Shown piece after piece: positions 24,101 to 31,648 of a DNA stretch of 64,000 nt (positions within the stretch are counted from its first letter, which is position 1; each line of letters starts with the position of its first letter). A program made the translations under genes and the position numbers. The notes below the pieces were generated by a model. It ran no database searches. It had not been told where the DNA came from and saw only the letters and a list, made by a program, of their open reading frames with translations. This DNA is from Marivirga tractuosa DSM 4126. GTDB lineage: Bacteria > Bacteroidota > Bacteroidia > Cytophagales > Cyclobacteriaceae. Location of the stretch: contig NC_014759.1 in the NCBI RefSeq assembly GCF_000183425.1, positions 2,077,001-2,141,000 of the forward strand, written 5' to 3'.

Positions 24101-25240
24101 ATGGCTAAAAAACCATTCCTTAAGTATAACAGAAGCACGGTTTCTGAAGTAACTTATAAAACCTTTGAAATAGCAAAGAAGGAAAAAGCTTTCATTACCA
24201 TGATTGCTATTTTTACTTTTGTTTGCGGACTCATCACACCATATCCTCAAATTGCCATGTGGGTTGGTTTTGGTTTGGCGGCCTATTCTGCCATTGCCAA
24301 TGATAGTATTCAGACCATTGGAACATTTATAGCTTCGAACAGTAAAAAGCCCTGGTGGATTTTATGGCTATTTATGGGGTTGATTTTCCTTGCAACAGTA
24401 GGTTATAGTTGGGTGGTTTTTGATGGAGACGTAAGTAGTCAAAGGCTATTGACAAAAGGATTTGACAAAGCACCTACTTCATTTAGCTTTTTACAACTGG
24501 CCGCACCAATTTTACTATTAGTATTAACTCGCTTTAGAATGCCGGTTTCTACTACCTTTTTACTTCTAAGTGCCTTTTCAACTCAAGCATCATCAATAGG
24601 TGCAATGCTAGGAAAAAGTTTAACTGGTTATTTGTTGGCATTTGTTACGGCCATATTTGTTTGGTTTATCGTTTCAAAATTTGTCTCAAAGTATTTCAAA
24701 AGTAAAAAACCAGCCAAATTCTGGACACCAGTACAGTGGATCATCAGTGGAGCTTTATGGTCCGTTTGGGTGTCTCAAGATGCAGCAAACATTGCCGTAT
24801 TCCTTCCCAGAAGTCTTAATATTTACGAATTTATAGGTTTTGCTGGTTTTATATTTATTGGCATGGGGCTTCTATTTTTTCTTAAAGGAGATAAAATACA
24901 AAGTATTGTAAATGAAAAAGCAGGAGTAACCGATGTTAGGGCAGCCACTATAGTAGATTTCGTTTATGCAATCCTCCTTTATTATTTCAAAGTTATAAGT
25001 ACTGTTCCAATTAGTACAACCTGGGTTTTCATAGGACTACTAGGCGGTAGAGAAGTAGCCATTGCCATCAGTAAAAAGCGCTATAAAAAGAGAATAAAAA
25101 ATATTAGAAGAGCTAGTAAAATTGTTGGTAGAGATTTCCTTTACGCTACAATCGGATTAGTTTTATCTGTACTTCTAGCCATTGGGGTAAACAAAAAATT
25201 CCAGGATCAGATTGTGAACGAAATCATGAATTTCTTTTAG
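24101..25240 (+). CDS. Divergent PiT-family (PHO4) inorganic phosphate transporter
   Basis: 379 residues with about ten membrane segments. The two inverted family repeats are recognisable: AAYSAIANDSIQTIGTFIAS in the first half and SQDAANIAVFLPR in the second, matching the GAND-type signatures of PiT proteins, with FRMPVSTTFLLLSAF and VPISTTWVFIGLLGG as the paired STT elements. This supports cation-coupled phosphate uptake across the inner membrane, although the divergence from typical PiT proteins leaves the substrate less than certain. Divergent from the NptA-like gene and followed by a terminator. Confidence 0.75.
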   Translation: MAKKPFLKYNRSTVSEVTYKTFEIAKKEKAFITMIAIFTFVCGLITPYPQIAMWVGFGLAAYSAIANDSIQTIGTFIASNSKKPWWILWLFMGLIFLATVGYSWVVFDGDVSSQRLLTKGFDKAPTSFSFLQLAAPILLLVLTRFRMPVSTTFLLLSAFSTQASSIGAMLGKSLTGYLLAFVTAIFVWFIVSKFVSKYFKSKKPAKFWTPVQWIISGALWSVWVSQDAANIAVFLPRSLNIYEFIGFAGFIFIGMGLLFFLKGDKIQSIVNEKAGVTDVRAATIVDFVYAILLYYFKVISTVPISTTWVFIGLLGGREVAIAISKKRYKKRIKNIRRASKIVGRDFLYATIGLVLSVLLAIGVNKKFQDQIVNEIMNFF

Positions 25241-25287: not shown

Positions 25288-25334
25288 TTGATTTAAAGAC
25301 TAAAATCATAAGATCAAATTAGGGAATATTAATA

Positions 25335-25640
25335 AACGCCTGTACAAAACCCGTTTGCCATACTAGGCTATGAAATACTTAAAGTAGTAACTTAGACCTT
25401 CTTCTCAAACTGCCCCCTATATAAATTGCAAAACATAAGAAAAATTAACTCCAGTCAATGCACAAAAAAATATCTTTAGATGCAAGCTGTGAAAAGCAAT
25501 CATAAATTACGTATTATTTAGCAATCTTCTATCTAAAAGGTATTGAGCAAACACTTCACTTATTAACATGATTCATGCTTAGCTTAGTGTTATTAATCCT
25601 CCTGACTTTTCAAGTTAATTCATAACTTAAAAAAGGCGTT
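25335..25640 (-). repeat. attC-like intercassette repeat, site A (degenerate)
   Basis: Gene-free region between the PiT-like gene and the first accessory gene. It is bounded by AACGCC (25335-25340) and GGCGTT (25635-25640), an inverted pair; the outer end lies 12 bp past the stop of the lipoprotein gene. Its segment 25339-25527 aligns along about 190 bp with 26371-26560 (site B), sharing GGCTATGAAATACT, AAAGTAGT, ATATCTTT, TGAAAAGCAA and ATTTAGCAA. Together with sites C and D it shares GTAYAAAA..CGT followed by GGCT. Interpreted as a decayed recombination site. Confidence 0.5.
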
Positions 25641-25652
25641 GCGAACCACTTT

Positions 25653-26336
25653 TCAGAAAAATACAAAAGTTGATTTCCCCTTTCCATTTTTTATTTTTAA
25701 TTCATCTTGATTTGAATTTAAGGCTAAGCATTTAAATGAATAATATACCGCAACTTGTTGTAATGGGCGTTCAATTACCCTTATGCTATCAATACTAAAA
25801 TCAAAGTCTTCAGCTGTAATTTGTTGATCGAAAGAAAATGAACTGTATCCAAGCTTTGCTTCGTTCGTAGCTTGATCAGTTAAATAGTACCCTATTTTAA
25901 CATTGTGTAAATTAGAAGCTGGCTGTACAGCTTGACTATAAACAAATTCACTTCTATCAAAAAAATCTATAAAGTCAGAAAAATTTGAGTACCTAGGAAA
26001 AGTTGCGGTTAATTTATCATTTGATTCTAAAGTCCCAAATGTCACGAAAATATTTATGTCATTATTGGTTTGTGTAGATTTATAACCTATTTGCATATCT
26101 ATATAAGTAGAATCTACATTTTGTCCATTCGTATTTGCGGAATTTGATTTCCCAGAAACATCTGTTGTTACTAAAAATTCTTCACCAAAATCACCGAGGA
26201 TATAATCATCATAAGACTGCAAAGTATCTAAAGCGACTGCATAATAATTATTGACAATAGGTTTAACATCTTCTGGTTCATTACCACAAGAGGTGAAAAA
26301 TATTAGTAGCGATGTTAAAAATAGTATGTTTTTCAT
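25653..26336 (-). CDS. Hypothetical lipoprotein (putative cassette gene)
   Basis: 227 residues. A lipoprotein signal peptide ends in FFTSCGNEPED, so the mature protein is lipid-anchored. The remainder is predicted beta-rich with no cysteine cluster or catalytic motif that I recognise (ANTNGQNVDSTYIDMQIGYKS). No known family. It sits between attC-like sites A and B, with its start 30 bp or so from B and its stop 12 bp from A, the layout of an integron cassette. Confidence 0.65.
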   Translation of the reverse strand: MKNILFLTSLLIFFTSCGNEPEDVKPIVNNYYAVALDTLQSYDDYILGDFGEEFLVTTDVSGKSNSANTNGQNVDSTYIDMQIGYKSTQTNNDINIFVTFGTLESNDKLTATFPRYSNFSDFIDFFDRSEFVYSQAVQPASNLHNVKIGYYLTDQATNEAKLGYSSFSFDQQITAEDFDFSIDSIRVIERPLQQVAVYYSFKCLALNSNQDELKIKNGKGKSTFVFF

Positions 26337-26366
26337 TGGTTCAATAGTTTTTTTAAGCTGGTTGAT

Positions 26367-26560
26367 AAAGCCGGTATAAAATCCGTTTATTATAAATGGC
26401 TATGAAATACTGAAAGTAGTGATTTATGTATTCTCCGCAAACTAAACTAATTGATTAGTTGCAAACGATTAGGATAATTAAGCACTATACTTACCAAAGC
26501 AATATCTTTGCTGTCGAGCCATGAAAAGCAAGGATAAAATATGAGTGATTTAGCAAAGGG
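26367..26560 (-). repeat. attC-like intercassette repeat, site B
   Basis: Within the gene-free 26337-26596. It begins AAAGCCGGTATAAAATCCGT at the low-coordinate end and contains ATGGCTATGAAATACTGAAAG; a partner CATGGCT-type segment occurs inverted around 26518-26526. It is a diverged copy of site A over about 190 bp. Lies between the stop of the PH-like gene and the start of the lipoprotein gene. Confidence 0.5.
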
Positions 26561-26596
26561 GCTGCAAAGTGGAAAGCGAATGGGTTATATATGAAA

Positions 26597-27022
26597 TTAG
26601 GTGTTTTTTATTCTACTTCTCAGTTTTTGGACTGCTGGGTGATCTGAATAAAATAGAAAAAACTCTGTATAACCAATAAAAACTATTCGTTTCCCAAATT
26701 CACACTTTTCTTCAAGAGTAATGAAAATAATCCTTGGAAACATTATTATATGTGATACACTTTTCATATTTGAAAGTGGAATCTTAGCCGATTTGAAAAA
26801 ATTGTCCGCATAGAGATATTGATTATCCATGTAAAGATTTTTAGTCCGGATAAAGAAAAAATACAGAACTGATATGAGAAGAAAAACAGCAAAAAGTGTA
26901 GGTAATAATTCTAACTCATTTTCTCTTATTTCCTTAATCACAAAAGTTAAAAATCCCCCGATTAAAATTAAAGGAAATACAAATTTCCAAAACAAAGTCA
27001 ATGTGGTAGATAGTCTGATCAT
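26597..27022 (-). CDS. Hypothetical membrane protein with PH-like C-terminal region (putative cassette gene)
   Basis: 141 residues. Two membrane segments (about 10-28 and 40-57) are followed by a soluble beta-rich part (TKNLYMDNQYLYADNFFKSAKIPLSNMKSV) that resembles bacterial PH-like domains. No further motif. Its start codon is only 5 bp from attC-like site C, leaving no room for a promoter of its own, which fits a promoterless cassette gene. Confidence 0.6.
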   Translation of the reverse strand: MIRLSTTLTLFWKFVFPLILIGGFLTFVIKEIRENELELLPTLFAVFLLISVLYFFFIRTKNLYMDNQYLYADNFFKSAKIPLSNMKSVSHIIMFPRIIFITLEEKCEFGKRIVFIGYTEFFLFYSDHPAVQKLRSRIKNT

Positions 27023-27026
27023 CTTT

Positions 27027-27222
27027 ATGCAACGCCACTGTATAAAATTCGTGGCTGATTAAAAGTATAAAAATTTGCGTTAACTACCGAGGCAATCCGC
27101 AGGATTGGCTTATTAAATTAAGTCTCACCAATAAGTCAATCCTGCGGATTGCCGGACTATCTACGAAGAGCAGAAGGAACAATAACCTACTAACAGCCAT
27201 GATTTATGACAGAATGTTAGGC
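27027..27222 (-). repeat. attC-like intercassette repeat, site C, with nested long inverted repeat
   Basis: Between the start of the PH-like gene and the stop of mazF. Read on the minus strand it starts with GCCTAAC (27222-27216) and ends near GTTGCAT (27033-27027), one base off the GTTRRRY consensus. Outer arms at 27038-27057 and 27194-27212 are inverted repeats (CTGTATAAAATTCGTGGCTG against CTGTCATAAATCATGGCTG) with extrahelical bases. Nested inside are arms 27091-27114 and 27130-27153, 24 bp complementary with one G-U, each arm itself a CAATCC-NNN-GGATTG hairpin. Confidence 0.6.
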
Positions 27223-27229
27223 TTAGTTA

Positions 27230-27553
27230 TTAATCTACAAAAGTTTCCTTTATTATGCTTTTAACTTCTTTTATCTCTGGTTTTGACAGCCGATCGAGAG
27301 TTTTTATAATTCTTTGCTTATCAACAGTTCTGATCTGATCGAGCACAATCCAACCCATTTTGTTATCGTGTTTTACTTCTACTCGTGTGGGATAATTTTT
27401 TGAGCTCGTTGTCATGGGAGCAATCACGATCGTCCTTAGGTATTTATTCATCTCGTTTGGAGAAATCACAACGCAAGGTCTAGTTTTTTGGATTTCACTG
27501 CCGATTGTAGGATTTAAATTGACTAAAACGATTTCGTACTGATTTATTTCCAT
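27230..27553 (-). CDS. mazF: MazF/PemK-type endoribonuclease toxin
   Basis: 107 residues. The fold-defining start YEIVLVNLNPTIGSEIQKTRPCVVISPNEMN, then TIVIAPMTTSSKNYPTRVEV, GWIVLDQIRTVDKQRI and the ending LSKPEIKEVKSIIKETF are all typical of PemK/MazF toxins, with Arg in KTRPCVV and Thr/Ser in MTTSS at the active site. It cleaves mRNA when freed from antitoxin. It overlaps mazE by 10 bp, so the pair is translationally coupled. Its stop is 8 bp from attC-like site C. Confidence 0.92.
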   Translation of the reverse strand: MEINQYEIVLVNLNPTIGSEIQKTRPCVVISPNEMNKYLRTIVIAPMTTSSKNYPTRVEVKHDNKMGWIVLDQIRTVDKQRIIKTLDRLSKPEIKEVKSIIKETFVD

Positions 27554-27789
27554 TCGTTTAGGTTTTCATCCTCGAACACATCGTTAAATAGTAAACTGTC
27601 ATCCTTATTGTCAGACATTTCCTTAAATGCCTTTTCCCACCCTTTTCGAGGTTTTGAAAGAGGCTTTATGATGATTTGGCCTTTTTCTAGAATCAGATCA
27701 ACCTTATCTTTAATATTATATTTCTCTAAAATAGTCTTACTAAATCTTATTCCTTTAGAATTTCCTATCTGTACAACCGAAACTTCCAT
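27544..27789 (-). CDS. mazE: MazE/AbrB-type antitoxin
   Basis: 81 residues. The AbrB/SpoVT DNA-binding fold is visible in EVSVVQIGNSKGIRFSKTILEKYNIKDKVDLILEKGQIIIKPL; the acidic tail (DNKDDSLLFNDVFEDENLNEW) is the usual toxin-binding part. It neutralises the adjacent MazF and probably represses the operon by binding near its promoter. It is preceded by a good -7 box, so unlike its neighbours it has its own promoter. Confidence 0.9.
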   Translation of the reverse strand: MEVSVVQIGNSKGIRFSKTILEKYNIKDKVDLILEKGQIIIKPLSKPRKGWEKAFKEMSDNKDDSLLFNDVFEDENLNEWK

Positions 27790-27814
27790 AATTCCTCTTT
27801 AATTAATGTAATTA

Positions 27815-27822
27815 CAAAGTTA
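27815..27822 (-). promoter_or_regulatory. Possible mazEF promoter -7 box
   Basis: Minus-strand TAACTTTG matches TAnnTTTG, 25 bp before the mazE start. Autoregulation by MazE at this site would be expected from the family. Confidence 0.45.
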
Positions 27823-27898
27823 CTACTTTCTGCTGGAAATAAGAAGATGAAGGTGAATTATTTTTAGGATTACAAGATTCGAATGGAGCAGAAATTAA

Positions 27899-28023
27899 GT
27901 CTAACGTTAGGTATAAGAAACGTAGGGCTATGCAAAATTTATAAAAGGATGGTGAAGTTGCATTCCACCTTACAAATTATCAAATAACCACAAAGCCCTA
28001 TGTTTTCTTATATGGTGTTAGGC
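27899..28023 (-). repeat. attC-like intercassette repeat, site D (best example)
   Basis: 125 bp. On the minus strand it starts GCCTAAC (28023-28017), matching RYYYAAC, and ends GTTAGAC (27905-27899), matching GTTRRRY. The inner arms 27912-27929 and 27994-28012 are complementary over 18 bp apart from C/T differences and one extra base in one arm, the kind of extrahelical base that gives attC sites their strand choice. Size and boxes fit integron attC sites. Lies between the stop of the 28066 gene and mazE. Confidence 0.65.
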
Positions 28024-28065
28024 ACTTTTATCTTTTTCTTCAAAATATTGCCATCCCACTAATTA

Positions 28066-28449
28066 CTATCCATTTGTTTTCTTAATAAAATAATTTGAAA
28101 TATAGACTAATAATGGTGTGGTTATCAACAAAGTTATGACTGTAATCCATTTAAAATTTTTGATAAAAGAGCCTTCTAGAATAAATGGAGAGTAAACTCC
28201 AATGAAAACAAGAACCATCAGCGAAAAAGCTATTATCCAATTATTCATTCTGGTCTTTTTTATCAAAAAAATGTGAAGAAGAGTTAAAGAAAAATAAACC
28301 CAATAAAAAGTAAGGAACATAAGAAAAGGATTCATCCAATTTATGCCGTTTCTATCTATAAAACTAGTATAAAATACACCGAACAAATAGTGACATAAAA
28401 AAATTATTAAACTACTAAAAAAGGCTACTTTAAGATTTTTCATGATCAT
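28066..28449 (-). CDS. Hypothetical four-helix membrane protein (putative cassette gene)
   Basis: 127 residues. Four hydrophobic segments (about 7-29, 38-62, 72-92 and 100-121) occupy almost the whole protein; no charged catalytic motif or known family is recognisable. It starts 5 bp after the stop of the large lipoprotein gene, so the two are one transcription unit and would form one cassette between attC-like site D and the half-site at 30275. Confidence 0.55.
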   Translation of the reverse strand: MIMKNLKVAFFSSLIIFLCHYLFGVFYTSFIDRNGINWMNPFLMFLTFYWVYFSLTLLHIFLIKKTRMNNWIIAFSLMVLVFIGVYSPFILEGSFIKNFKWITVITLLITTPLLVYISNYFIKKTNG

Positions 28450-28454
28450 TTTTT

Positions 28455-30242
28455 TTAATTACAGCCTAAGTCTGAAACTGATTTAGTTCCATTTAAAACA
28501 GCTTCTAATTCTTCTATATCAATTCTTTCTATTGATGATTCACCCACAGTTGCTGTACCTCCATTCTCAGTATCATTAATAAAATTTTTCAAGTTATTTT
28601 GCAAGCTTGACCAAATTTCTTCACCTCCTTCAAAAGCTCCTGCTGTATTCGGTAGTTCAGAAACTAATTCATCAAATGATTCAGCCACTCTGTCAACTCC
28701 CGCTGTATAAAATGTGTATGTGCCATCAGGATTTGCTGTTAATCCAAATTGACGATTACCACTTACCGGATGACTGTGGTCTTGAGAAGTATAAATAGTA
28801 GAAAATATCCATGACTGATTTTGCTGATCTGTGCAAAGTACAGAGCCGTCTTGTTGGCCGGGGAATATACCAAATAAGGAAACTGCAATATCAAACCTCA
28901 TCACAGTGCCTAAGTAATTAGTGCTATTCCACCTTTGAGCCTCTGTCTGATTGTAAGGCCCAAAGCTTGTATTGTCATTAAAGCAGATGTCCGCAAAGTT
29001 TTCTCTTATGTAATTGAAGAACTCCCGTCCTGTAAATGTTTCACCAGTTGCTGGATTTTCTGGTAATTGAGTAATTTCTACTGGAAAATAATCCATATTT
29101 ACTATTGCACCAGATGCATCTTCAATATACTGCATTTCAATATCATAGCTTTCTTGGTTTAACTGCTGAACTCTGTCTTTTACAGCTTGATTAGGTTTAT
29201 GTTCGGCAAGATCTTTCCAAGCCTGACTCAATTCTTCGCATGGTATATCAATTAAAGCGAAGGGGTCTTCTTCTAAAATTGATTTAAGAATCGCAGTTCT
29301 TACCTCAACTTCATCAACACATACTCCATCAATTCTTACTTCTCCATCACCGCACTCTGGCAATGGTGTTGGTCCGTTAAGGGGAGGCTCTAATCCAATA
29401 AGGTCATCTTCTGCTTCTCCTGGGTCTGAAGGACTGCCACCATCATCGTCTGGTGAACTGGGATCTCCAGAACTACCTCCTCCTGGACTAGTACCTCCAC
29501 CTGTCTCGGTATCTGGAAATGGGGTGCCCCAATCTGATCCGTCACTATCACCCCCACCTTCATCGCAATCTCCCGAGGTAATTTCAATGACATAGACTTC
29601 CTCTGCATCATCGCAGGGACGACCAAGATTTGAATTCCAACAATCATATTCTACAATAACTTCAACATCTTCTACGCAGTCTTGACTGGAGGATCTTCGA
29701 TTGAATTGATTGCCGAAAGAATATCTTAATAATGGCTCTCCCGATAAATTGTATTTATTTACTTCTTGAAGAGCGTTAGTTGGACTGCTATCTGTATCGG
29801 TTTGATATTCATATTTAAATAGAGCGGCATAAAACCCATCAGATTTTTCTTTCAACACTAAATTAAGAAAGTTATTTTCATCTTGTTGCGCTATGGAAAA
29901 GGTATAATTGGAATAGTTACCATTACCTTTTTGAACAATTTGAAGTACTCGACTTTGATCTACCATGTCCCAACTGAATTGAAAGGGAAAGTTGGTTCTA
30001 TGGTTAGGTCGGTTCATAAACTCTTTTGCCTGCATAAAGGCTTCATTTAGTTTTTCTGAATCTTCTAGCCTAATATAGCCATTTTTTGCCACTTCAGCAG
30101 GTAAATCAGCTTCCACATTATTCTCTTGGCAAGAGAATATAAAAGCCAAAAAGAAAATTAGGCCTAGTGAAGCAAGTTTGTAGAGTTTAAGAATATTGAT
30201 TGACTTGTAAACACAGCTGTGTTTGGGGAAATTTGGTTTCAT
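28455..30242 (-). CDS. Large hypothetical lipoprotein with Asp/Gly/Ser/Pro-rich linker (putative cassette gene)
   Basis: 595 residues. A lipoprotein signal ends at FIFSCQENN (Cys about 38). The N-terminal domain (residues about 55-220) is followed by a low-complexity linker of D, G, S and P (about 225-280), then a short Cys-containing segment ECGDGEVRIDGVCVDE, and a C-terminal domain (about 300-595) with QDGSVLCTDQQNQSWIFSTIYTSQDHSHPVSGNRQFGLTANPDGTYTFYTAGVDR. The C-terminal part looks like a self-contained globular, possibly enzymatic or toxin-like, module but I recognise no active site. The function is unknown. Start is 33 bp from a GCCTAAC box. Confidence 0.6.
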   Translation of the reverse strand: MKPNFPKHSCVYKSINILKLYKLASLGLIFFLAFIFSCQENNVEADLPAEVAKNGYIRLEDSEKLNEAFMQAKEFMNRPNHRTNFPFQFSWDMVDQSRVLQIVQKGNGNYSNYTFSIAQQDENNFLNLVLKEKSDGFYAALFKYEYQTDTDSSPTNALQEVNKYNLSGEPLLRYSFGNQFNRRSSSQDCVEDVEVIVEYDCWNSNLGRPCDDAEEVYVIEITSGDCDEGGGDSDGSDWGTPFPDTETGGGTSPGGGSSGDPSSPDDDGGSPSDPGEAEDDLIGLEPPLNGPTPLPECGDGEVRIDGVCVDEVEVRTAILKSILEEDPFALIDIPCEELSQAWKDLAEHKPNQAVKDRVQQLNQESYDIEMQYIEDASGAIVNMDYFPVEITQLPENPATGETFTGREFFNYIRENFADICFNDNTSFGPYNQTEAQRWNSTNYLGTVMRFDIAVSLFGIFPGQQDGSVLCTDQQNQSWIFSTIYTSQDHSHPVSGNRQFGLTANPDGTYTFYTAGVDRVAESFDELVSELPNTAGAFEGGEEIWSSLQNNLKNFINDTENGGTATVGESSIERIDIEELEAVLNGTKSVSDLGCN

Positions 30243-30274
30243 ATTTTTTATTTAAATGGTTTTGTGGCAATTGT

Positions 30275-30314
30275 GCCTAACAATTAAATATAGTCACCCC
30301 CCAGGTGACTATAT
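30275..30314. repeat. attC-like half-site and adjacent perfect hairpin
   Basis: GCCTAAC (30275-30281) is the box found in sites C and D, here without a recognisable partner, as at the edge of an array. Directly beside it ATATAGTCACC (30288-30298) and GGTGACTATAT (30304-30314) form a perfect 11-bp stem with a CCCCA loop. The rest of the 212-bp gap 30243-30454 shows nothing clear. Confidence 0.4.
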
Positions 30315-30454
30315 ATCTATTATGTCAGTCTAAACTTAATGATAATTATAATGGAAGCAAAAGCTGTACAAATTGACCTAAAGCAACAATTCTATCATTA
30401 ACCGTAAAATTAAACGTATAATTCTACGCTAGAAATCAACCTAGTCTCTTATGA

Positions 30455-31648
30455 TTATTTGCTTTCCAACTCTTTAATTGCCAGCCAAGCCATTAATCCC
30501 ATTCCAGTTTCCAACGCAAGTGGATCAATATCAAAAGTTGGGGTATGTACAGAGGAGTTGATTCCTTTCGCTTCGTTTCGAACTCCTAATCGATAAAAGC
30601 AGGCATCGGTAGCCTGAGAAAAGTAGGCAAAGTCTTCAGCAGCCATCCACAAATCCAAGTCCTCCACATTTTCCTCTCCTAAAAATTCTATGGCATTGGC
30701 TTTGGCTCTTTCGGTCAATTCGGGCTCATTCACCAAAAATGGATAGCCTTTTCTGATTTCGAATTCGCATTTAGCACCCATGCTTTCTGCCATTCCCTCT
30801 GCCATTTTTCTCATCTTCTTTTGAGCAGAAGCTCTCCATTCCTCATCCATGGTGCGGAAAGTACCTTCTAAATAGACCTCATTCGGAATTACATTGGTAG
30901 CTCCCTCGGCAATTACTTTCCCAAAAGATAATACAGATGGGATTTTAGGACTGGCATGTCGGCTTACAATTTGCTGCAAAGCGACTAAGATATGGGCTGT
31001 GATAATGACAGGATCAACATTCAATTCTGGCATAGCACCATGACCGCCTTTTCCAATGACTTTCATGTATAATTCATCCGTGCTGGCCATATACATGCCG
31101 CTTCGGAATCCTACTTTACCAGCATCTATTAAAGGCATTACATGCTGACCTATGATATTATTCACATCAGGTTTTGTCAAAACGCCTTCCTTAATCATTT
31201 TAGATGCGCCACCCGGAACTCTTTCCTCTCCTGGTTGAAAAATCACCTTGATCGTGCCTTCGAAATGTTCTTTTAATTGATTTAAGATTTTTACTGTGCC
31301 CAGCATGGAAGAGGTATGGACATCATGCCCACAAGCGTGCATGACCCCCACATTCTGGCTTTTATAAGGAACCTCATTTTGCTCTGTAATAGGAAGGGCG
31401 TCAATATCAGCTCTAAGCGCAGTTACTTTTTTATCTGGATTTTTCCCTTTGATTAAAACCACGGTGCCGGTATCTGCCACTCCTGTTTGATGCTCAATTC
31501 CCCATTCTGTTAAGGTTTTACTGATGAATTTAGCGGTTTCAAACTCTTCGAATGAGAGTTCTGGATTGCGGTGCAGATGTTCTCGTAATCCTTTAATTTC
31601 TTCGAACTGTGACTTTGCCAGTGATTGAATCTCTGATTTTAAATCCAT
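30455..31648 (-). CDS. M20 family amidohydrolase/aminoacylase
   Basis: 397 residues. It has the M20D features: HLHRNPELSFEEFETAKF, ALRADIDALPI, HACGHDVHTSSMLG (metal ligands), QPGEERVPGGASKM and the C-terminal MAAEDFAYFSQ. The lid domain (GKGGHGAMPE) contains the bridging His. Such enzymes hydrolyse N-acyl amino acids or related amides; the exact substrate cannot be read. No signal peptide, so cytoplasmic. Monocistronic as far as the sequence shows. Confidence 0.9.
   Translation of the reverse strand: MDLKSEIQSLAKSQFEEIKGLREHLHRNPELSFEEFETAKFISKTLTEWGIEHQTGVADTGTVVLIKGKNPDKKVTALRADIDALPITEQNEVPYKSQNVGVMHACGHDVHTSSMLGTVKILNQLKEHFEGTIKVIFQPGEERVPGGASKMIKEGVLTKPDVNNIIGQHVMPLIDAGKVGFRSGMYMASTDELYMKVIGKGGHGAMPELNVDPVIITAHILVALQQIVSRHASPKIPSVLSFGKVIAEGATNVIPNEVYLEGTFRTMDEEWRASAQKKMRKMAEGMAESMGAKCEFEIRKGYPFLVNEPELTERAKANAIEFLGEENVEDLDLWMAAEDFAYFSQATDACFYRLGVRNEAKGINSSVHTPTFDIDPLALETGMGLMAWLAIKELESK

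Follow-up and report, generated by a model that had tools for sequence, protein, structure and literature searches.

An array of cassettes headed by an attI-like site in Marivirga tractuosa probably belongs to an integron-type system of patch-less tyrosine recombinases

The DNA analysed is a 64,000-nucleotide stretch from the chromosome of the marine bacterium Marivirga tractuosa DSM 4126 (C2:2077001-2141000), here called the window, from a genome of two contigs and 4,516,490 bases; the chromosome is given as 4,511,574 bp in PMC3111994. Between positions 25327 and 30326 of the window the minus strand carries an attI-like site followed by four gene-plus-repeat units. Very probably, to judge from its sequence and from that of its relatives, this is an attI-headed array of an integron-type system in which the cassettes are moved by tyrosine recombinases that lack the patch of IntI, the integron integrase. 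Two of the units have intact cores (sites D and C) and two are decayed (sites B and A). An initial annotation had described accessory genes, all on the minus strand, with noncoding repeat blocks A to D on their 3' side, and every element described is present in the sequence. Its reading of an integron-type array with divergent, long attC-like sites in a Bacteroidota chromosome stands. The blocks themselves are real, but the attI-like site had not been listed, and blocks A and B have no usable core pair. The features are as follows (positions in the window; aa, amino acids).

30273..30326, minus strand: attI-like site, palindrome ATATAGTCACC..GGTGACTATAT, then core GTTAGGCAC (30273-30281)
27905..30280, minus strand: cassette 1, open reading frames (ORFs) of 595 and 127 aa plus site D; bounded at both ends by GTT cores
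28455..30242, minus strand: 595-aa protein whose N-terminus has a hydrophobic stretch that ends in Cys, by eye resembling a lipoprotein signal
28066..28449, minus strand: 127-aa protein (ORF), by eye probably a membrane protein
27897..28025, minus strand: site D, attC-like and intact, R'' GTGCCTAAC (28017-28025), R' GTTAGACTT (27897-27905)
27033..27904, minus strand: cassette 2, mazEF-type toxin-antitoxin pair plus site C; unit bounded by GTT cores
27544..27789, minus strand: mazE-like antitoxin, 81 aa, without a Pfam match and named from its position ahead of the toxin gene and from the initial annotation
27230..27553, minus strand: PemK/MazF toxin, 107 aa (PF02452, E 1.3e-31)
27025..27224, minus strand: site C, attC-like, R'' AAGCCTAAC (27216-27224), R' GTTGCATAA (27025-27033)
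26597..27022, minus strand: cassette 3 gene, 141 aa, ATG 2 nucleotides past the GTTGCATAA core
26364..26603, minus strand: site B, attC-like repeat of about 240 bp with decayed cores, right box GGCTTTATC without GTT
25653..26336, minus strand: cassette 4 gene, 227 aa (ORF)
25327..25570, minus strand: site A, attC-like repeat of about 240 bp, right core GTTTATTAA kept, left box decayed
24101..25240, plus strand: low-coordinate flank, weak PHO4 match under the Pfam cut-off; adjoins the M20 peptidase in relatives with an empty site
30455..31648, minus strand: high-coordinate flank, M20 peptidase (PF01546; synteny)

The six array genes lie between the M20 peptidase gene and the gene with the weak PHO4 match, and are interspersed with blocks A to D, which stand directly 3' of genes. 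The attC-type boxes annotated in C and D were found as listed. Sites A and B form a related pair of inverted repeats, with 75% and 73% identity over two stretches, and the left box of site B shows no complementarity to the preceding core. The toxin of the toxin-antitoxin cargo has the PF02452 match and is the one product of the six genes with a Pfam family at E <= 1e-3, neither protein of cassette 1 having one, and no Pfam transposase was found among the six. Nor does the window hold an integrase, as annotated: the genome's 10 PF00589 matches over cut-off all lie elsewhere. The middle of site C (27091-27153) holds an inverted repeat, ..AATCCGCAGGATTG.CTTA.., with a closely similar copy in a second array of the genome (L015:18592-18655); it resembles a small repeat element lodged inside sites.

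In an integron, a cassette is fronted by a core, the right box of the preceding attC site, and the left box of the cassette's own attC site pairs with this core. Sites were detected by a scan for [CT]AAC..GTT[AG] pairs with pairing arms, skipped bases being penalised, in 65 loci (883 kb) drawn from this genome, its congeners, the family and further loci, mostly of Bacteroidota. The scan returned 134 sites, against 25 in reversed and 8 in shuffled sequence, with one site in the 58.8 kb of window sequence outside the array; at a slightly higher cut-off the window yields site D alone, and A, B and C fall below. Complementarity was scored over five further bases that the scan does not force, between neighbours within 4 kb. 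All five bases matched in 49 of 89 neighbouring pairs and four in another 3; the 37 pairs with three or fewer may reflect missed sites, decay or array ends. The two boxes of one and the same site matched fully in 4/124, and a random box of the same locus did so in 12.7%. Reversed and shuffled sequence gave two pairs each, none of them with a full match. Six loci with a true IntI, used as a positive control, matched in 6/9 pairs. An earlier count, from fewer loci and with a forced base included, had given 30/54 pairs against 2/69 for own boxes and a null of 13%. Sites whose left box matched (n = 52) measure 59-237 bp from AAC to GTT, most often 120-126. In the window the attI core is complementary to the left box of site D at 9/9 positions, the D-C pair (R'' of site C against R' of site D) at 8/9, and the C-B and B-A pairs fail.

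These pairings bear on the reading that the repeats are terminal repeats of transposons or of elements resembling miniature inverted-repeat transposable elements, or transcription terminators, that merely lie between genes. Long inverted repeats after genes, and an IS91-type element in the genome, are what such a reading would lead one to see. Facing boxes of neighbours pair, however, while the two boxes of a single site mostly do not. The units shared between arrays consist of a gene plus one site and have the GTT cores as their boundaries, unlike a mobile unit defined by a transposase or terminal repeats. No Rfam family reached threshold in the window. Such an origin is thus extremely improbable.

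Elsewhere in the chromosome the same kinds of site stand beside integrase genes. Used as a query against the 4.5-Mb genome, site B matched 12 places at E <= 1e-3, sites A and B included; most of these are clustered, and the repeats mark gene boundaries both here and in relatives, as the cassette reading of the initial annotation implied. Two of the clusters lie directly behind like-oriented tyrosine recombinase genes, at C2:133136-134272 (minus strand; integrase 1) and C2:2331698-2332810 (plus strand; integrase 2). The palindrome pattern of the window attI occurs three times in the genome at three or fewer mismatches and not at all in the backward reading. One occurrence (C2:133091-133112) is directly 3' of integrase 1, one is that of the window itself, and one, at C2:3616425, follows what is left of an integrase C-terminus, about 16 codons. 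Integrase 2 has a palindrome and core of its own directly 3'. Four intact attI-like cores were found in the genome, each complementary at 9/9 positions to the left box of the site that opens its array; for a degenerate fifth copy the figure is 8/8. Among congeners, the attI core of the corresponding locus matches the first left box at 9/9 positions in G358 and at 7/9 in G356; next to the G358 integrase there is an attI without a match to the first detected site, which is 5 kb away. Sites of the C type (about 189 bp) recur at C2:2333515, 2346338 and 4061044.

The sister arrays carry further insertions and cargo. A group II intron (Rfam RF02001, RF01998; C2:127117-128627, plus strand; L013:12118-13628) lies inside the integrase-1 array on the strand opposite to the cassettes, and encodes a reverse transcriptase/maturase ORF (PF00078, PF08388); attC sites are known targets of group IIC introns. 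An IS91-type element with a Y2 transposase (PF04986) is inserted in the second array (C2:2343530-2345502; L015:8531-10503) and carries a tyrosine recombinase of its own that ends in SPLEKL. The second array also holds a zeta-toxin-like gene (PF06414; L015:19317-19898).

Conceivably the cassette logic is real but the mover is another recombinase of the cell, such as XerC/D, with the integrases standing next to the arrays by chance. The genome does encode further tyrosine recombinases, with its 10 PF00589 matches in all. The attI-type arrangement recurs, however: an inverted repeat with GTT was found 3' of 18/36 integrase ends as against 8/137 control ORFs (three loci at contig ends and two without a parsed gene being left out). 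Arrays were also present within the 20 kb beside integrase genes in four congeners (G356, G358, G360 and G361). A coincidental neighbourhood is therefore very unlikely, and integrases of the kind encoded next to the sister arrays are the preferred movers of the cassettes.

Relatives differ in cassette content. The window locus is empty in three of eight congeners (G055, G360 and G355), where the aligned flanks are 77-109 bp apart. In G358 it contains an attI and other cassettes, and in G356 an attI and the mazEF cassette, the latter at 92% identity among different neighbours while the flanks are at 79-83%. The initial annotation had named as a refutation that related genomes carry the whole block as one conserved unit; these loci do not. 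In G354 no site was detected between flanks 1.1 kb apart, and in G361 and G357 a stretch of 12 kb did not contain the low-coordinate flank. The mazEF cassette also occurs in the integrase-adjacent array of G360 (87% identity, 76% covered), a genome in which the window locus itself is empty. A comparison of 92 cassettes with the array loci brought out shared ones. A 741-bp cassette of G055 corresponds to one in the second array of M. tractuosa at 90.6% identity; its ends lie 1 nucleotide from both GTT cores, and the sites in front of it are of different types in the two genomes. G361 and G357 share an identical 644-bp cassette, of which G361 has two copies, with differing sequence on both sides. 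Other shared cassettes fit less neatly, their homology ending up to some hundred bases off the core or running into a like neighbouring site. In one array of a further genome (G028; L075) a 573-bp cassette type recurs several times at 86-98% identity, which suggests repeated duplication of the cassette.

The array of the window could also be a relic, moved formerly by such a system and inert now. Sites A and B are decayed, the window holds no integrase, and in one sister array the integrase is reduced to the remnant of about 16 codons before the attI. Against this, site D and the attI are intact, their boxes matching at 9/9 positions, the frame of integrase 1 is open and its attI almost the same as that of the window, and content varies among close relatives, the shared cassette being more alike (92%) than the flanks. 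A relic is accordingly possible but doubtful. On the preferred reading of an array still served by its system, cassettes 1 and 2 appear mobile, and cassettes 3 and 4 appear to be fixed through the decay of their sites.

The initial annotation had pointed to a tyrosine integrase with the IntI patch as the enzyme to be sought in the rest of the genome; integrases were indeed found elsewhere in the chromosome, beside the sister arrays, but without the patch. Array integrases of the close group measure about 373-398 aa as called, and their catalytic residues are invariant in an alignment of 19. The distance from the KG..K/R motif to H.LRH is 58-59 residues in 28 of 30 parsed ORFs and 100 in 7/7 parsed true IntI. 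The 30 ORFs derive from overlapping loci and represent fewer distinct genes, a few of them IS91-linked or short recombinases and not array integrases, and the parse took 7 of 30 IntI loci, the other 23 not being parsed. The two exceptions are one gene (L061 = L089; 333 residues, from a mis-anchored motif), in which the alignment shows no patch. By sequence, the best solved relative is IntI4 (2a3v), and the alignment to it skips chain residues 179-242, which contain the patch; the IntI patch of about 42 residues is lacking in the array integrases. A canonical IntI was also looked for in this genome and rejected, all matches to TIGR02249 being below threshold; scores of 206 and 188 bits stand against a cut-off of 265.

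The 12 IntI rows of a 53-protein tree group as a clade (100/100) to which no array integrase belongs; closest to this clade stand alphaproteobacterial recombinases together with two IS91-linked ones from array loci. A close group of 17 array integrases has 98/98 support, with its base open; the tree is midpoint-rooted and gives no direction of change. The integrase exceeds the NF040815 cut-off, and its top Foldseek match is XerA. Array integrases bear an extra N-terminal domain, modelled at a predicted local distance difference test score of 85.7. The nearest structural rows to this model are CASTOR1 and then XPB damage-recognition domains, with HARP further down, and the scores prove nothing alone. 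A small, divergently placed Cys-rich gene stands beside both integrases (L013:19367-19747 and L035:13206-13595), the first with a weak match to the treble-clef DUF2116. By eye it was also recognised in 11/20 homologue loci, of which one is partial; a role as regulator or partner is possible.

Folding and polarity were examined in 80 validated sites from 18 loci, defined by a box match to a neighbour and oriented by the integrase or, where none was at hand (e.g. L018, L019 and L225), by the fetched strand. An isolated A/G difference between the arms, an A.C mismatch when folded, is present in 76/80. Its AT/GT form occurs in 68 of the 80, as against 15 for the reverse form. When folded as DNA, the bottom strand is the more stable in 61/80 (mean -24.1 vs -22.2 kcal/mol). 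The stretch 27894-28025 with site D has a z score of -2.98 on the plus (bottom) strand, with the core boxes paired, and of -2.37 on the minus strand. In strict-sense integrons the strand polarity of attC is marked by extrahelical bases in a folded bottom strand; the validated sites here combine a folded hairpin with polarity, and their conserved mark is the A.C mismatch.

These properties bear on whether the cassettes were instead put in place by an ordinary IntI, equipped with the patch, which has since disappeared, as in a canonical integron or in clusters of attC sites lacking integron-integrases (CALIN). The core boxes and cassette logic are those of true IntI loci, with 6/9 pairs matching there, and true IntI are common in the phylum: 84 of 296 sampled genomes exceed the TIGR02249 cut-off, frequently in other classes (families f12-f47). 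Among the matching genomes listed, on the other hand, G096 is the one of the same class over that cut-off, within a same-class sample of which the size is not given. The recombinases of the sister arrays are patch-less and outside the IntI clade, the A.C signature was seen in 1/14 scan hits at true IntI loci, there in the reverse sense, and validated sites reach 237 bp. Placement by an ordinary IntI is very unlikely on these grounds, and the patch-less integrases are favoured over it.

How these integrases would move cassettes can be proposed in outline. We infer that integrases 1 and 2 act in trans on the array of the window; integrase 1 is the likelier actor, because its attI is nearly the same as that of the window. 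Cleavage by these enzymes would fall between G and TT, on a site folded from one DNA strand (probably the bottom one), and a circular cassette would be inserted at the attI. As the mark of polarity the enzymes would use the conserved A.C mismatch (T.G on the bottom strand) in place of bulged bases. The part played by the patch in IntI would fall to the N-terminal domain, whose resemblance to branched-DNA recognition domains is weak. The roles assigned to this domain and to the mismatch are hypothetical.

Compared with integrons that have an IntI, the system of the window shares cassettes of a gene plus a site, cores resembling RYYYAAC..GTTRRRY with cassette-specific complementarity, an attI next to the integrase, a toxin-antitoxin pair and unknown genes as cargo, and IntI4 as the closest solved relative. 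It differs in an integrase without the patch, with the extra N-terminal domain and outside the IntI clade, in an attI that is a palindrome 3' of the integrase, and in sites of 59-237 bp with the A.C polarity mark. Integrons with an IntI include sedentary chromosomal ones and those of the Treponema type, in which the integrase points into the array. Several marks of a strict-sense integron were found, namely RYYYAAC/GTTRRRY cores with a left box complementary to the front core of its own cassette, an attI beside the integrase, and cassettes gained, lost and exchanged as units (shared cassettes, locus polymorphism); an IntI integrase with the patch in its catalytic domain was not. Because this last test is the defining one, the system is read as an integron variant and not as a strict-sense member. 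The initial annotation had called the array CALIN-like, which fits in that several attC-like sites and cassettes occur in a window without an integrase. It is not a CALIN in the strict sense, because the array starts with an attI-like site; another part of the chromosome, moreover, encodes an integrase whose attI is nearly identical. The same patch-less catalytic core as in the array integrases is found in IS91-associated and XerA-type tyrosine recombinases, which are not known to stand at the head of cassette arrays. In its treatment of an 'integron-like subgroup' of tyrosine recombinases, the study of Smyshlyaev et al. 2021 (PMC8138268) presents the insertion as essential for integron function, and in the sections dealing with that subgroup no cassette arrays are described for patch-less members, unlike what is reported here.

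A profile of the integrase matched 146/295 sampled Bacteroidia genomes at E <= 1e-80, a part of which has been shown to hold integrases at the head of arrays, and a query with a single integrase protein matched 35/60 genomes of the family at E <= 1e-60. Array-type integrases occur in named hosts such as Aequorivita sinensis, Winogradskyella ursingii and Psychroflexus gondwanensis; in the first two, repeats resembling the sites lie downstream, with no box match between neighbours. A scan of viral contigs gave 80 loci at no more than 46% identity in the best segment, and plasmids gave 33 records, all below 60% identity and including partial catalytic-domain matches on Acinetobacter plasmids. Among open-licence PubMed Central texts no title on cassette arrays with patch-less integrases was found, and publication elsewhere is possible. 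Integron surveys have searched for IntI, and passages of PMC2426708 and PMC9668308 name the patch as the criterion.

The balance is even as to whether Bacteroidia harbour a widespread second kind of integron, with patch-less recombinases, an attI behind the integrase gene, and folded sites recognised through a HARP/XPB-like N-terminal domain and an A.C mismatch. If they do, the capture of cassettes through folded DNA would have two separate solutions, or could do without the patch. A large reservoir of cassettes in Bacteroidota may have been overlooked. A basic question now becomes testable: whether the patch is needed for recombination at folded single-stranded sites or can be replaced by another domain.

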